A stretch of DNA of 57,767 bases from Kordia algicida OT-1. Its GTDB lineage: Bacteria > Bacteroidota > Bacteroidia > Flavobacteriales > Flavobacteriaceae. Position numbers and translations under genes: made by a program. The DNA is taken from positions 2,172,862-2,230,628 of the forward strand of contig NZ_DS544873.1 in assembly GCF_000154725.1 (NCBI RefSeq), written 5' to 3'. Below the pieces are notes generated by a model, which saw nothing but the letters and a program-made list of their open reading frames with translations, searched no databases and was not told where the DNA came from. Positions 4,081 through 56,294 of this stretch are shown piece by piece (positions within the stretch are counted from its first letter, which is position 1; each line of letters begins with the position of its first letter).

Positions 4081-4971
4081 TCAGAATTTAATTTTTTCCC
4101 ATTTTGAAGCGTGAAATGGCGCGACTCTATTGAGGGTTTCTACCAATTGTGTGACACTTACTTTTGGTCCGCCAGAGAAAACATTTTGAATTTCTTCCGC
4201 TTTGGCATCAAAAAAGGTTTGTAATAAGAAGGAATTGGGTCTTCGGTTGTTCAATGCTTTGAAAAGTTCTAAGCTTCCACTGATGGCTTGTTTTGCCGAA
4301 CGCGGATCATCTGCCATTTTATCCATTCCTACTCTGTGGTAGTTATACATTACCGTTCTGTATTCTTTATACGTATTGTTGAGCATGTTGTCTAACAATC
4401 TCCAACGTGTACGATTTCCATCTGCTTCTTTCCATCCTAGAAATGGACTTGTCTGCGAGAGGTTCACAATTTGTTGTGCTTGCGCATAGTAATCTGATCC
4501 GCCTCTGAGCGAAAATGTGTCTGCGTCAATCCCTAAAATAATGTGCACATAGTAAGCAACAACCGCAACTAAGTTTGAGGTGAATGCGTTGGGATTGTAT
4601 ACAATTGGTTGAAATTCTTGATAGATGAATCGAAATTGTCTGTCATTGAAGTTAAATACAGGCGACTCAAATGACGAATTGTAGATTGGTCGTGATGATT
4701 GCACTTGAATGGTCGCTACGAATTCATCCGATTGGTATTGCGATACATTTATCACCATACTACAGTTGATGCGTTCTTGTGGTGCAAATTTCTTATTAGT
4801 CCATTGAGTTTTGTTGACAAAATCATTCAGCGAACGTTCTAAGGTTTTGAAAATTTGCTGATTTGTCTGATTCACTTGTTGTGCATCAATTGTGATTTGA
4901 CAGTTTAATTCTTGTGCCGTCATGAATGATGCTACACTGAAAAATAAGATACTTAAAACAAGATTACGCAT
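4081..4971 (-). CDS. porD: Type IX secretion protein PorD (DUF4835 family)
   Basis: Periplasmic or outer-membrane associated protein needed for type IX secretion and gliding-related export in Bacteroidota. The 296-aa protein has a signal peptide (MRNLVLSILFFSVASFMTAQ) and then the DUF4835 fold, starting ELNCQITIDAQQVNQTNQQIF, with the conserved stretch NDFVNKTQWTNKKF and a middle SPVFNFNDRQFRF-like region. It overlaps the end of coaBC by 8 nt, and the coaBC-porD-recN order is the usual flavobacterial one, which supports the call. The biochemical role of PorD is not well defined. Confidence 0.85.
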   Translation of the reverse strand: MRNLVLSILFFSVASFMTAQELNCQITIDAQQVNQTNQQIFKTLERSLNDFVNKTQWTNKKFAPQERINCSMVINVSQYQSDEFVATIQVQSSRPIYNSSFESPVFNFNDRQFRFIYQEFQPIVYNPNAFTSNLVAVVAYYVHIILGIDADTFSLRGGSDYYAQAQQIVNLSQTSPFLGWKEADGNRTRWRLLDNMLNNTYKEYRTVMYNYHRVGMDKMADDPRSAKQAISGSLELFKALNNRRPNSFLLQTFFDAKAEEIQNVFSGGPKVSVTQLVETLNRVAPFHASKWEKIKF

Positions 4972-30156: not shown

Positions 30157-30393
30157 ATGAAAAAAAAGAATTTAAGTAAATTAAGCTTAAAAAAGAGCAC
30201 TGTTTCTGAGTTGAATAATTCAAGGAAAATCATTGGAGGAGGAGAAAAATCTGAAAGAAGAACTAATTGTGAACTATGTCCTCAAACAGGAACTTGTGCC
30301 AACACATGTGCCAATTGTCCTAGTGATGGCTGCCCTGAACCTACAGAAGGAATATTTTGTTCTCTTAATGTAACTTGTTATATACTTGTTTAA
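30157..30393 (+). CDS. Class I lanthipeptide-like precursor, 8-Cys core
   Basis: 78 aa. The leader (MKKKNLSKLSLKKSTVSELN, then RKIIGGG) matches the Bacteroidota pattern K-x-L-x-L-x-K-x-x-V/I-S-x-L ending in a double-Gly site, seen in class I lanthipeptide and related RiPP precursors. The core after residue 28 has eight Cys (TNCELC, GTCANTCANC, DGC, IFC, VTC) and many Thr/Ser, suitable for thioether or disulfide rings. No LanB, LanC, radical SAM or peptidase-transporter gene is within reach in this window, so any maturation enzymes are encoded elsewhere. Assignment rests on the leader and Cys content only. Confidence 0.7.
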   Translation: MKKKNLSKLSLKKSTVSELNNSRKIIGGGEKSERRTNCELCPQTGTCANTCANCPSDGCPEPTEGIFCSLNVTCYILV

Positions 30394-52564: not shown

Positions 52565-53782
52565 ATGAAATTATTTACAACAACAATCACACTATTTCTT
52601 GCGATTATTACTTTAGGATTTACTTCATGTAAAAGCGCCAACAACCAAGATTTAGAAGATGGGCTTTACGCAGAAATAAAAACAACAAAAGGTACCATGC
52701 TTGCAAAATTATTCTATAAGCAAGTACCTGTAACAGTAGCAAACTTTGTTGGTTTGGCAGAAGGAACACATCCAAAATTAGCAGACTCTTTACAAGGAAA
52801 GCCATACTATAATGATATTATTTTTCACAGAGTTATGGATAAATTTATGATTCAAACTGGTGACCAAACAGGAACTGGGCGAGGAAATCCAGGATTTCGC
52901 TTTATGAGCGAATTAGACCCGAATTTAAAACATGACAAACCAGGAATGTTATCTATGGCAAATTCTGGAGGATTAAATACTAATGGAAGTCAGTTTTTCA
53001 TCACAGAAGTTCCTTACCCAAGCTTAGATGCTTTTGATGCCAGCGGAAACTTAAAACCTTGCGATCAACCAAGAGTAAGCTGTCACGCAGTATTTGGTGA
53101 ATTAGTTAAAGGATTGGAAGTTCAAGACAGTATTTCAAACGTTGCCGTATCTAAAGATCGTGCTACACTAAACAAACCTTTAGAAGACATTAAAATCACT
53201 GAAATCAACATCATCCGTAAAGGTTCGGATGCAAAAGCATTTGATGCAGCAAAAGTTTTCAATGAAAAAGAAGCTGGACTTCCTGCAAGACATGAAAAAC
53301 TAAAAGAAGAACAACTAGAAAAGCAAAAAGAAAGAGCTAAAAAAGCTGCAGAAAGCTTTAAAGAAGCTAACAAAGACTTAGGTGAATTTTACGAATCGCC
53401 AACAGGAATCGTAATGGTTACTACCGAAAAAGGTTCTGGTGTACAACCAAACTCAGCAGACAAAGTAATGGTAAACTGTGCAGGTTATTTAGATAACGGT
53501 AAATTATTCTACACAACTTACAAAGAGCTAGCACAAAAAGAAGGTATTTACAACGAAGTAGCTGACGAACGCGGATTTTACGCACCTTTCCCAAGTGTTT
53601 ACAACCAAAGTGCAACACTTGTTCCTGGATTTAAAGAAGCATTATTACGTATGAAAGTTGGTGAAAAAGCAAAAGTTTTCATTCCTTCTCACTTAGGATA
53701 TGGTTCAAGACCAAACGGACCAATTCCAGCAAACTCAAACTTAATTTTTGATATCGAAATTGTAAAAATTGCAGATAAATAA
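52565..53782 (+). CDS. Cyclophilin-FKBP fusion peptidyl-prolyl isomerase lipoprotein
   Basis: 405 aa, lipobox GFTSC (Cys22). Residues about 35-210 form a cyclophilin domain (FHRVMDKFMIQTGDQTGTG, MLSMANSGGLNTNGSQFFIT). After a charged helical linker (KLKEEQLEKQKERAKKAAES), residues about 290-403 form an FKBP domain (VPGFKEALLRMKVGEKAKVF, IPSHLGYGSRPNGPIPANSN). Two unrelated isomerase folds in one envelope protein, next to gldI, suggest a dedicated folding station for exported proteins. The terminator follows. Confidence 0.92.
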   Translation: MKLFTTTITLFLAIITLGFTSCKSANNQDLEDGLYAEIKTTKGTMLAKLFYKQVPVTVANFVGLAEGTHPKLADSLQGKPYYNDIIFHRVMDKFMIQTGDQTGTGRGNPGFRFMSELDPNLKHDKPGMLSMANSGGLNTNGSQFFITEVPYPSLDAFDASGNLKPCDQPRVSCHAVFGELVKGLEVQDSISNVAVSKDRATLNKPLEDIKITEINIIRKGSDAKAFDAAKVFNEKEAGLPARHEKLKEEQLEKQKERAKKAAESFKEANKDLGEFYESPTGIVMVTTEKGSGVQPNSADKVMVNCAGYLDNGKLFYTTYKELAQKEGIYNEVADERGFYAPFPSVYNQSATLVPGFKEALLRMKVGEKAKVFIPSHLGYGSRPNGPIPANSNLIFDIEIVKIADK

Positions 53783-53803
53783 ATTTTAAAAAATCATATA
53801 TAT

Positions 53804-53840
53804 AAAAGACTCTTTTTATCATAAAAGGGTCTTTTTTTTA
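53804..53840 (+). terminator. Terminator of the nrnA-gldI operon
   Basis: A 13-bp stem (53804-53816 with 53823-53835, one G-T pair), 6-nt loop, T-rich tail. Confidence 0.88.
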
Positions 53841-53950
53841 TGCGCAAGTGTTAACTTCTATCATTTGCTTTAAAACATTAGTTAGCGGAAAGTATCACAA
53901 AAAACTAATTTTCAGTAAATTACATCCTAAGAACGAAAGTTTCATTAAAA

Positions 53951-54057
53951 AAGGGGCTTTTTCACCGGGAAAAACACGGTAAAGATTCTATCTATTTTCC
54001 TGTTTTGAGATTCTATTGACTGAATGATATTTGCAACGAAACAAAAATAAATATCAC
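53951..54057 (+). promoter_or_regulatory. Promoter and leader of precursor 1, first repeat copy
   Basis: Begins with AAGGGGCTTTTTCAC, resembling the right arm of a terminator with no left arm, then a promoter region with TTTTG (54003-54007) and GATATTTG (54026-54033, one mismatch to TAnnTTTG), 18 nt apart. The block recurs at 54327-54436, offset by exactly 376 bp. Confidence 0.6.
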
Positions 54058-54276
54058 ATGAAAAAACAAATCAAAACTTTAGGATTAAAAAAGCAAACAG
54101 TTTCTTCATTAGAAGCTAGGTTATTAAAGGGTGGAGCGCCAACTACAATGACTATGTGGGATTATTGCGCAAGTCAATTAGTGTGCGAACCATTACCTCC
54201 ACAACAACCTGAACCGGGAACAAATCCGTCATATTCCAACTGTGACAATTGTGGAAAAAGTTGGTTGAGATGCTAA
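54058..54276 (+). CDS. Class I lanthipeptide-like precursor, 5-Cys core (copy 1)
   Basis: 72 aa from ATG 54058; a longer TTG frame to 54031 would begin inside the promoter. Leader MKKQIKTLGLKKQTVSSLEA, then RLLKGG: the same K-x-L-x-L-x-K-x-x-V/I-S-x-L plus double-Gly pattern as the gene at 30157. The core has five Cys (DYC, LVC, SNC, DNC, LRC), a Pro-rich centre (PLPPQQPEPG) and several Thr/Ser. The C-terminal residue is Cys. No processing genes are nearby. Predicted ribosomally made modified peptide, bioactivity unknown. Confidence 0.72.
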   Translation: MKKQIKTLGLKKQTVSSLEARLLKGGAPTTMTMWDYCASQLVCEPLPPQQPEPGTNPSYSNCDNCGKSWLRC

Positions 54277-54306
54277 AAAACATCAAATAAATTCCAAGTA
54301 CACATT

Positions 54307-54338
54307 AAAAGCCTCTTTATATACAAAAGGGGCTTTTT
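54307..54338 (+). terminator. Terminator of precursor 1
   Basis: AAAAGCCTCTTT (54307-54318) pairs with AAAGGGGCTTTT (54326-54337) through 12 bp including one G-T, then T. Its right arm is the start of the next repeated promoter block. Confidence 0.82.
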
Positions 54339-54436
54339 CACAAGTGTAAACACGGTTTTTAATACCTTTATTTTCCTGTTTTATGATTTTTTGTACTGAA
54401 TGATATTTGCATCGTAATAATTAAAAAACAATAATC
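54327..54436 (+). promoter_or_regulatory. Promoter and leader of precursor 2, second repeat copy
   Basis: Copy of 53951-54057. Conserved parts include AAGGGGCTTTTTCAC, ATTTTCCTGTTTT and ACTGAATGATATTTGCA (54395-54411). It places the -7 element GATATTTG 27 nt upstream of the ATG at 54437. Confidence 0.6.
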
Positions 54437-54649
54437 ATGAAAAAACAAAAAATCTCACTTTCATTACGTAAACAAAAAATTTCTTCATTAGACACGCAAG
54501 ATGTAAAAGGCGGAATGTTTACCACTGATTTTATTAAAACCATCAGAGTTGACTGCCGATTTACAAAAAATACAGATTGCGGTCAGTTTACTTGTAATCT
54601 TGACACGATTACACCAGAATGTTTGGCAAGTAGAGTCGGATTATGCTAA
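54437..54649 (+). CDS. Class I lanthipeptide-like precursor, 5-Cys core (copy 2)
   Basis: 70 aa. Leader MKKQKISLSLRKQKISSLDT, then QDVKGG. The core has five Cys (VDC, TDC, FTC, PEC, GLC), again with Cys as the last residue, and seven Thr. The core sequence is unrelated to copy 1 except for Cys number, while leader and promoter are clearly duplicated, the pattern expected for a peptide family whose core diversifies. Followed by a large structured inverted repeat rather than a simple terminator. Confidence 0.72.
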   Translation: MKKQKISLSLRKQKISSLDTQDVKGGMFTTDFIKTIRVDCRFTKNTDCGQFTCNLDTITPECLASRVGLC

Positions 54650-54672
54650 GAGATTAAAGTATTGCTGTAAAA

Positions 54673-54809
54673 AAAGAGGCTATCTAAAAAGTGTATTGAA
54701 GCGTCATTCTGGACCTGATCCAGAATCTCATCATATTGACTTTCAAATGTTATGAGAAACCGAATCAAGTTCGGTTTGACGAAGTCTGTACTTTTTAGAC
54801 AGTCTCTTT
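54673..54809. repeat. Nested inverted-repeat element (cloverleaf-like)
   Basis: Outer arms of 20 bp (54673-54692 and 54790-54809) pair with one G-T and one mismatch. Inside are two perfect hairpins: ATTCTGGA/TCCAGAAT (54706-54726) and AAACCGAA/TTCGGTTT (54757-54777), each with a 5-nt loop. As RNA this folds as a branched junction. It may be a terminator that gained a REP-like insert, or a small non-autonomous element. Confidence 0.6.
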
Positions 54810-54830
54810 ACTATTACAAAAAAACTTATA

Positions 54831-56294
54831 TTATTTCTTCGGAATATTCTTCAAAATTTCCAATACATATTTCCAATATTTTTGAGCAGAAGAAATACTT
54901 GCGCGCTCGTCTGGCGAATGTGCTCCACGAATGTTTGGACCAAAACTAATCATTTCCATGTCTGGATAATTGGTTCCTAAAATTCCACATTCCAATCCTG
55001 CGTGGCAAGCGGCTACATGCGGTTCTTCACCGTTGTTCAATTCTTTATACAAATTCACCATTACTGGCAAAATTGAAGCATTCATATTTGGTTCCCAGCC
55101 AGGATATGATCCTGAAAATTCAACTTCGCAACCTGAAAGTTCAAACGTAGCTCGTAATTTTGTTGCTAAATCCATTTTTCCACTTTCTACGGAAGAACGA
55201 GTTAAGCAACCCACTTTAATTTCGCCATCTTTTACAATAACACGTGCAATATTATTTGACGTTTCAACCAAATCTTCAATGTCTGGACTCATTCGGTATA
55301 CGCCGTTGTGCGCAGCGTATAGTGAACGCGTAATTCCTTCTTGCACGCCCAATTCCATCACGCCTTTTGGAGTTTCTGTAGTTGTAATTTCAATTTCCAA
55401 TTCTGCTTCAATCGTAGCAAATTCTTTTTTAATCGTATCAATCTGTGTTTGCATTTCAAACGCAAACGCTTCTTGGTGTACTTTATCAACAACAACTGTC
55501 GCGACACTTTCTCTAGGAATTGCGTTACGCAAACTTCCACCATTAATTTCAGCAATACGTAATCCGAAGTTTTCAAAACCATCAAACAGCAAACGATTCA
55601 TCAACACATTTGCGTTTCCAAATCCTTTGTGAATATCCATTCCGCTGTGTCCGCCTTGCAAACCGCTAATTTCAATTGTGTACGCTACACTAGCTGCTGG
55701 AGTTTCTTCCACAACATACGAACGTGTTGCAGTAACATCAATTCCTCCCGCACAACCAATTCCGATTTCATCATCTTCTTCCGTATCAAGGTTTAGCAAA
55801 ATTTCACCTTCCAACAATCCGCCTTTCAATCCCATAGCGCCTGTCATTCCGGTTTCTTCATCAATAGTAAATAAGGCTTCAATGGCTGGATGTGCAATAT
55901 CGTCACTTTCCAGCACTGCCATAATTGTCGCAACCCCAAGTCCGTTATCGGCTCCTAAAGTTGTTCCTTTTGCTTTTACCCAATCTCCATCTACAAACAT
56001 TTCAATTCCTTGCGTATCAAAGTCAAATTCGGTATCAGAATTCTTTTGGTGTACCATATCTAAATGCGATTGCATCACAATGGCTTTTCGGTCTTCCATT
56101 CCAGCTGTTGCAGGTTTTTTCACGATCACGTTTCCAACTCCATCAACGAAGGTTTCCAACCCTAAATCTTCTCCAAATTTCTTCATAAAAGCAATCACGC
56201 GTTCTTCTTTTTTTGAAGGTCTTGGTACTGCATTTAGATCTGCGAATTTATTCCAAAGTTTTTTAGGTTCTAAAGTTCTAATTTCTTGACTCAT
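54831..56294 (-). CDS. pepD: Aminoacyl-histidine dipeptidase (M20, PepD)
   Basis: Cytosolic zinc peptidase for Xaa-His and other dipeptides. The 487-aa protein has MQSHLDMVHQKN near residues 73-84 (zinc His and Asp), TLGADNGLGVA near 117-127 (bridging Asp), TIDEETGMTGA near 148-158 (catalytic and zinc Glu), a GGHSGMDIHKG dimerisation-lid region, and CHAGLECGIL near the C-terminus. A TACCTTTG -7 element lies 35 nt upstream (56329-56336 on the minus strand) without a clear -33 box. Confidence 0.95.
   Translation of the reverse strand: MSQEIRTLEPKKLWNKFADLNAVPRPSKKEERVIAFMKKFGEDLGLETFVDGVGNVIVKKPATAGMEDRKAIVMQSHLDMVHQKNSDTEFDFDTQGIEMFVDGDWVKAKGTTLGADNGLGVATIMAVLESDDIAHPAIEALFTIDEETGMTGAMGLKGGLLEGEILLNLDTEEDDEIGIGCAGGIDVTATRSYVVEETPAASVAYTIEISGLQGGHSGMDIHKGFGNANVLMNRLLFDGFENFGLRIAEINGGSLRNAIPRESVATVVVDKVHQEAFAFEMQTQIDTIKKEFATIEAELEIEITTTETPKGVMELGVQEGITRSLYAAHNGVYRMSPDIEDLVETSNNIARVIVKDGEIKVGCLTRSSVESGKMDLATKLRATFELSGCEVEFSGSYPGWEPNMNASILPVMVNLYKELNNGEEPHVAACHAGLECGILGTNYPDMEMISFGPNIRGAHSPDERASISSAQKYWKYVLEILKNIPKK

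Follow-up and report, generated by a model that had tools for sequence, protein, structure and literature searches.

The precursor pair and its array

The window, a 57,767-nt stretch of the genome of Kordia algicida OT-1, encodes two adjacent small peptides on its forward strand. Gene 1 (54058..54276) encodes 72 aa from the ATG given and comprises a leader, MKKQIKTLGLKKQTVSSLEARLLKGG (54058-54135), and a core (54136-54273); gene 2 (54437..54649) encodes 70 aa, again divided into a leader, MKKQKISLSLRKQKISSLDTQDVKGG (54437-54514), and a core (54515-54646). Their ATG start codons are 379 nt apart. Both leaders are 26 aa long, terminate in GG, and conform to the pattern LxLxKx5L, and both cores contain five Cys, one of which is the last residue. 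The genes are 54% identical in the leader and 9% identical in the core. The open reading frames and their alignment therefore bear out the first-pass annotation of this DNA, which had described a gene pair with double-Gly leaders, five core Cys with Cys last, and diverged cores. Its statement that no LanB, radical SAM, or C39 protein is nearby also holds, with zero LanB, C39, and SPASM matches inside the window.

Neither peptide had a Pfam match, and both scored below the curated cut-off of 22 bits against NF038153 (lant_leader_L1a; 12.7 and 14.0 bits). Against a profile of 64 leaders from the same genome, described below, gene 1 scored 32.9 bits and gene 2 scored 39.2 bits. A third member of the leader family (30157..30393, forward strand, 78 aa), with a core rich in Cys, is located elsewhere in the window. 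An Rfam scan of 53780-54850 returned only sub-threshold matches, which we regard as chance.

The pair is flanked on one side by a 405-aa gene (52565..53782, forward strand) that we take to encode a peptidyl-prolyl isomerase, and on the other by a 487-aa gene (54831..56294, reverse strand) that presumably encodes an aminoacyl-histidine dipeptidase-like protein. Homologs of both (41-75% and 89-95% identical, respectively) adjoin the array in all nine sister Kordia loci that were read (the locus was not found in G009), such that members of the family are located between the same two flanking genes in each case. Sister arrays comprise one to three leader-bearing units, as counted by pattern, and the order and number of units vary among them. 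Because the leader profile matches at least 142 places in the genome and the array is syntenic in nine of nine sister loci, the gene pair is not a product of chance.

Gene 1, recognizable by its APTT core, is present and open in all ten Kordia loci read (the K. algicida locus included), with a pooled dN/dS among the ten orthologs of 0.24 for leaders; the ratio for cores is 0.34, at a dS (1.29) that is near saturation. The leader type of gene 2 is found in ten genes distributed over eight of the ten arrays, again including our own; mean identity among these is 70% for leaders and 24% for cores. That the two genes are spurious small open reading frames, or a decaying pair without a product, is scarcely credible in light of the open frames and dN/dS ratios of gene 1 and of the family-wide contrast between leaders (2 Cys in 3,669 residues) and cores (11.5% Cys). 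Broken units do exist and are what such an interpretation could draw on: a third unit in G002 lacks GG and appears decayed, a 19-aa fragment of the family is located at position 1566046 of the K. algicida genome, both copies in a genome without LanB (G170) are broken, and one unit in G003 has a core of just seven residues.

A repeat search identified a 106-nt direct repeat upstream of the two genes, the copies of which are 75% identical and offset by exactly 376 nt. Copy A (53946..54051, forward strand) contains the 3' arm of a terminator-like hairpin, TTTTCCTGTTTT, and a -7-like element, GATATTTG, at 54026-54033; copy B (54322..54427, forward strand) contains the same -7-like element at 54402-54409. 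The 3' arm of a terminator-like hairpin between genes 1 and 2 (54307..54338, forward strand), which was seen by eye and missed by a consensus scan, is part of copy B. A block like copy A precedes the APTT-type gene in all ten arrays read (our own and nine sisters). Two copies were observed only in our genome, G010, and G002 among the arrays read, and in G002 the second precedes the decayed unit.

Promoters in Bacteroidota follow the pattern TTG-N17-22-TAnnTTTG. Of 121 upstream regions taken from the family, 4 contain this pattern, versus 1.6 in shuffled sequences, and in its exact form it precedes neither gene in the window; a promoter common to the family was rejected on these counts. The first-pass annotation had proposed a conserved promoter and the duplication of an entire promoter-leader-core unit, and each proposal stands in part. 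The repeated block is real, but it is local and finds no support across the family as a promoter. Duplication applies to the upstream block, but not simply to the genes: gene 2 as a recent copy of the full unit of gene 1 is unsupported, its leader type being present in eight of ten arrays. Because that leader type is so widespread, whereas the doubled block is confined to three of the arrays, genes 1 and 2 look in their sequences like older paralogs preceded by a block that underwent duplication or exchange.

A palindromic dispersed repeat (54668..54812, no strand assigned) begins 19 nt past the stop codon of gene 2. The element is 137-145 nt long, has a predicted fold of -52.9 kcal/mol (z -8.65), and is found at 34 distinct places in the genome (40 matches merged by hand) and in at least nine of the 11 Kordia genomes among the matches listed. 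Nine of the 34 copies, oriented either way, begin 5-37 nt past the stop codon of a precursor gene in the family, where 0.07 would be expected at random; the excess has a p of 2e-4 if all copies are taken to sit at gene ends, with a guessed 4,400 genes in the genome. Among 20 other copies whose flanks were inspected (five more were left out), 15 have an open reading frame of at least 45 aa ending within 60 nt, and several of these sit between converging genes. For these reasons, the element may be a two-way terminator or a small mobile element inserting at terminators.

A genome-wide leader family and a single LanB locus

NF038153 matched at least 97 places in the K. algicida genome at E<=10, at least 19 of them above cut-off; 5 of 14 control genomes were matched at E<=10 and none above cut-off. 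Sixty-four leaders read from these places were aligned, yielding the consensus MKKxxxKxLxLxKxxISxLxxxxxxGG and a profile that matched at least 142 places in the genome at E<=1. Removal of 3346080 (unreadable at a locus edge) and of two poor matches, 949779 and the 1566046 fragment, left 139 genes, 136 of which have GG as expected. The search for further genes with this leader that had been advised in the first-pass annotation thus returned a family of at least 139 members. All 11 Kordia genomes contain such a family, with between at least 125 and at least 150 leader matches each at E<=0.1 (six with at least 150). Collectively, these observations suggest that genes 1 and 2 are, in all probability, class I lanthipeptide-type precursors within a genome-wide Kordia family of at least 139 members, as judged from their sequences.

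The 139 genes fall into 92 groups, 61 of which are singletons, and 46 start-to-start gaps are shorter than 700 nt when compared to 2.6 expected at random. In 39 same-strand tandem pairs, mean identity was 57% for leaders and 30% for cores, and the leader was the more alike of the two in 37. For comparison, random pairs are 48% identical in the leader and 22% identical in the core, and cores are 20% identical to shuffled cores. Some near and distant precursors have C-terminal stretches in common, such as CSSWWGGQ.CKPCDK and DSRFGGCDSYYCP, that were recognized by eye. Examples are 416197/416577, 1693582/1694787, and 554328/3184116; in the last pair, TADVKDCP was seen in both genes despite their being 2.6 Mb apart. 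This looks like the sharing of modules between cores.

Each of the 11 Kordia genomes has a single match to LanB (PF04738). In K. algicida, it is located at C1:3416113-3418083, approximately 1.2 Mb from the pair in the window, and is encoded within a run of three separate genes in the order LanC (PF05147, LANC_like), LanB-N (PF04738, Lant_dehydr_N), and LanB-C (PF14028, Lant_dehydr_C). Next come family members 3419427, 3421526, and 3421926, and beyond these are genes for an HlyD protein and for an ABC exporter with a C39 domain (3425477-3425842). This organization recurs in the genus: open reading frames resembling LanC, LanB-N, and LanB-C are adjacent in 11 of 11 Kordia genomes, and in all 11 LanB shares its contig with a C39 domain encoded 7-10 kb away. 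The enzyme search that had likewise been proposed therefore yielded a LanB accompanied by LanC, by LanB-C, and by an exporter of the C39 type. Neighboring modification enzymes, a usual but not essential trait of LanA, do not accompany the window pair, and of the 139 genes in the family, just 3 lie no farther than 50 kb from LanB.

When proteins of solved structure were searched by sequence, LanB-N matched 9g04 (MadB), NisB, and 5ehk (MibB), LanB-C matched 9g04 and 5ehk, and LanC matched LanC-like proteins. A modeled Kordia LanB-N that is 94% identical to our own, from an alignment of 17 sequences and with a moderate mean pLDDT of 73.9, matched MadB, MibB, and NisB. These three proteins are class I dehydratases, and MadB and NisB have also been solved with substrate or leader.

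The leader of gene 2 and that of the peptide beside the K. algicida LanB are alike at 14 of 26 residues, as counted by eye. Some short peptides encoded near LanB depart from the family in their cores. The peptide next to LanB in our genome (positions 4815-4952 of locus L042) has the family leader and a core of 19 residues with one Cys, and its counterparts in loci L038, L039, and L041 likewise combine the family leader with a core that has one or no Cys. Such a low-Cys peptide may be a regulator, decoy, or helper rather than a product.

We then compared the distribution of the leader with that of LanB in a sample of 249 Flavobacteriaceae genomes, 24 with and 225 without LanB. At E<=0.001, the leader profile matched 17 genomes, comprising 16 of the 24 with LanB and 1 of the 225 without (Fisher p 2e-18, a value that is too small because the sampled genomes are related and not independent). 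Counted by genus, the leader was identified in 14 of 22 with LanB versus 1 of 180 without, and NF038153 at E<=0.01 matched 13 of 24 versus 2 of 225 genomes (G170 and G182). The sole LanB-free genome matched by the profile, G170, has two copies and both are broken, and use of the leader without LanB was rejected on that basis. The NF038153 match in G182 is inside a 305-aa frame and was judged to be chance. Eight of the 24 LanB-encoding genomes had no match to the leader profile, and therefore other leaders must exist; the "LanB" of one genome counted among the 24 (G246) is a fragment only.

Proximity followed the same pattern. Among LanB-encoding genomes matched by the profile, the two Kordia genomes excluded, a leader match was no more than 5 kb away from LanB in 11 of 14, or in 13 of 15 when NF038153 matches were added (for G255 and G078, these counts use part of the leader matches). 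The first-pass annotation had suggested that the pair belongs to a precursor family served in trans by distant enzymes. The distant and sole LanB, the leader encoded beside LanB both there and in other genera, and the co-occurrence of the two together give this suggestion good support. A genome devoid of RiPP enzymes and sister genomes devoid of related leaders had been named as observations that would speak against it; both the enzymes and the sister leaders were found.

Radical SAM enzymes were considered in addition to LanB. A separate RiPP locus (C1:1813000-1823000) encodes a SPASM protein, a C39 ABC exporter, and a precursor with the leader MKKINLAEFQTSKLTLNERLNTKGG, along with a further gene that we take to encode an ATP-grasp-like protein. 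As regards membership of the family in the grasp-with-SPASM group, the LxLxKx5L-GG leader was absent from this SPASM/ATP-grasp locus. Four SPASM proteins in the genome scored above cut-off, and radical SAM-modified peptides and lanthipeptides have both been reported for Kordia in the available sections of a recent survey (PMC11118758). Another RiPP enzyme, such as a radical SAM/SPASM protein, could thus be thought to modify the family, with the link to LanB being indirect. Against this, the leader of the precursor at the SPASM locus, which was read over 10 kb, is unrelated, and a pattern search found no LxLxK-GG gene within approximately 1.5 kb of the other SPASM matches. With zero such genes near SPASM matches, radical SAM was rejected as the enzyme of the family, and we consider modification by some other RiPP enzyme to be improbable.

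Core composition and the predicted pathway

The cores are rich in Cys (11.5% versus 0.7% in long open reading frames totaling 12,009 aa) and in Thr (11.8% versus 5.7%). At least two Cys are present in 131 of 136 cores, and at least four Cys follow residue 27 in 91 of 136 precursors versus 19 of 243 other small open reading frames (from nine loci and the window). Such Cys-rich cores, together with the six C39-domain matches in the genome, could also indicate secreted, double-glycine peptides with disulfide bonds that are exported and cleaved by a C39 protein without involvement of LanB or LanC. Double-glycine leaders and C39 exporters do occur without lanthionine synthesis, and C39 matches were identified in 8 of the 14 control genomes. 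Under that alternative, however, the leader would not be expected to track LanB (16 of 24 versus 1 of 225 genomes) or to be encoded beside it in 11 of 14 other genomes.

The arrangement of residues within the cores bears on the same question. Ahead of Cys, Ser/Thr is enriched at Cys-5 (181 versus 119 expected, z 6.8) and at Cys-4 (151 versus 120, z 3.2), z-scores that count related tandem copies over all cores; when the test was repeated on 72 dissimilar cores, the values were 87 versus 56 (z 5.2) and 69 versus 55 (z 2.3), respectively. There was no enrichment four or five residues after Cys (95 versus 99 and 75 versus 95 expected). The Ser/Thr count equals or exceeds the Cys count in 135 of 136 cores, and the number of Cys is odd in 64 of 136. 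Thioether rings therefore fit the cores better than do disulfides alone, and we consider disulfide-bonded products without lanthionine to be unlikely. Ser/Thr is also elevated at Cys+2 (167 versus 114) and depleted at Cys+1, where Pro is elevated; the enrichment of Ser/Thr at Cys+2 and of Pro at Cys+1 is not predicted by simple ring chemistry.

Class I lanthipeptide synthesis, the interpretation that we favor, would proceed as follows. Each small gene or array would be transcribed by itself, and the split LanB encoded at C1:3.41-3.43 Mb would bind the shared leader, LxLxKx5L...GG. LanB-N would glutamylate core Ser/Thr using Glu-tRNA, and LanB-C would eliminate the glutamate. LanC would then add Cys to form thioether rings, after which the C39 ABC exporter and its HlyD partner encoded near these enzymes would cleave after GG and secrete the peptide. 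By this scheme, one LanB would modify all of the scattered precursors, and a constant leader combined with free change of the core and tandem gain and loss of units could generate many peptides from one enzyme set. The putative biological role, following the usual guess for such peptides, is antagonism of rivals.

Relation to described systems

Class I precursors in Bacteroidetes with an LxLxKx5L-GG leader have been described (Walker et al., 2020; PMC7268733). In its available sections, that survey covers seven genes to each side of LanC and flags as a notable exception a class I cluster in which 10 precursors are encoded. The Kordia family resembles the class I type presented there in its leader motif, GG terminus, Ser/Thr/Cys-rich core, C39 protease near the enzymes, and LanB with LanC. 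It differs from the cases presented in those sections in that Kordia encodes about 140 precursors, almost all of which are far from LanC. Mining restricted to LanC neighborhoods would miss nearly all of them.

The closest parallels to this arrangement that we identified are in cyanobacteria. Prochlorosins are class II peptides of the Nif11 family that are modified by a LanM-type enzyme and whose genes can be scattered; 29 substrates are given for ProcM, and up to 83 putative precursors per strain (PMC10783134, available sections). SyncM is reported to serve up to 79 precursors (PMC9872173, available sections). Insofar as these sections describe them, the prochlorosin and synechococsin systems share with Kordia many scattered precursors, a GG leader, a variable core, and one enzyme set, the last of which is a prediction for Kordia. 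In contrast to the single LanM and Nif11 leaders of prochlorosins, Kordia has class I LanB-N, LanB-C, and LanC, an LxLxKx5L leader, and at least 139 precursors. By analogy, the best reading is that the Kordia set works like the prochlorosin system as a class I counterpart and not as a member of it.

Kordia has been named as RiPP-rich, and up to 176 predicted RiPP precursors have been reported in Bacteroidota genomes (PMC11118758). The available sections of that study do not contain the leader family, the locus with a single LanB, or the comparison of arrays presented here. The first-pass annotation had raised the possibility of an undescribed peptide group, and this needs to be qualified: the leader type is published (PMC7268733) and Kordia was already regarded as RiPP-rich (PMC11118758), but a genome-wide class I set served by one LanB was not found described in the open-licence literature.

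More tentatively, and with somewhat less than even confidence, the observations can be drawn together as a genome-wide combinatorial class I repertoire. Such a repertoire would comprise one LanB/LanC/C39 locus, a universal leader, and more than 100 mostly unlinked genes, the cores of which would be diversified by tandem birth and death, possibly with separate regulation and with the palindromic 3' element aiding spread or termination. If this is true, genome-wide biosynthesis of many peptides by one enzyme set also arose in class I and in an unrelated phylum, and the substrates in Kordia outnumber those of the published cyanobacterial one-enzyme sets that we found, as given in the available sections of those reports. 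A standing question, namely how a single dehydratase and a single cyclase cope with more than 100 unrelated cores and what purpose such repertoires have, would then become testable. The LanB/LanC pair of Kordia would also be a candidate tool with which to make libraries of cyclic peptides.

Large numbers of leaders were also observed outside of Kordia. Two genomes of a second genus (g69), G255 and G078, had at least 33 and at least 14 leader matches, respectively, and thus expansion of the family may have happened more than once.
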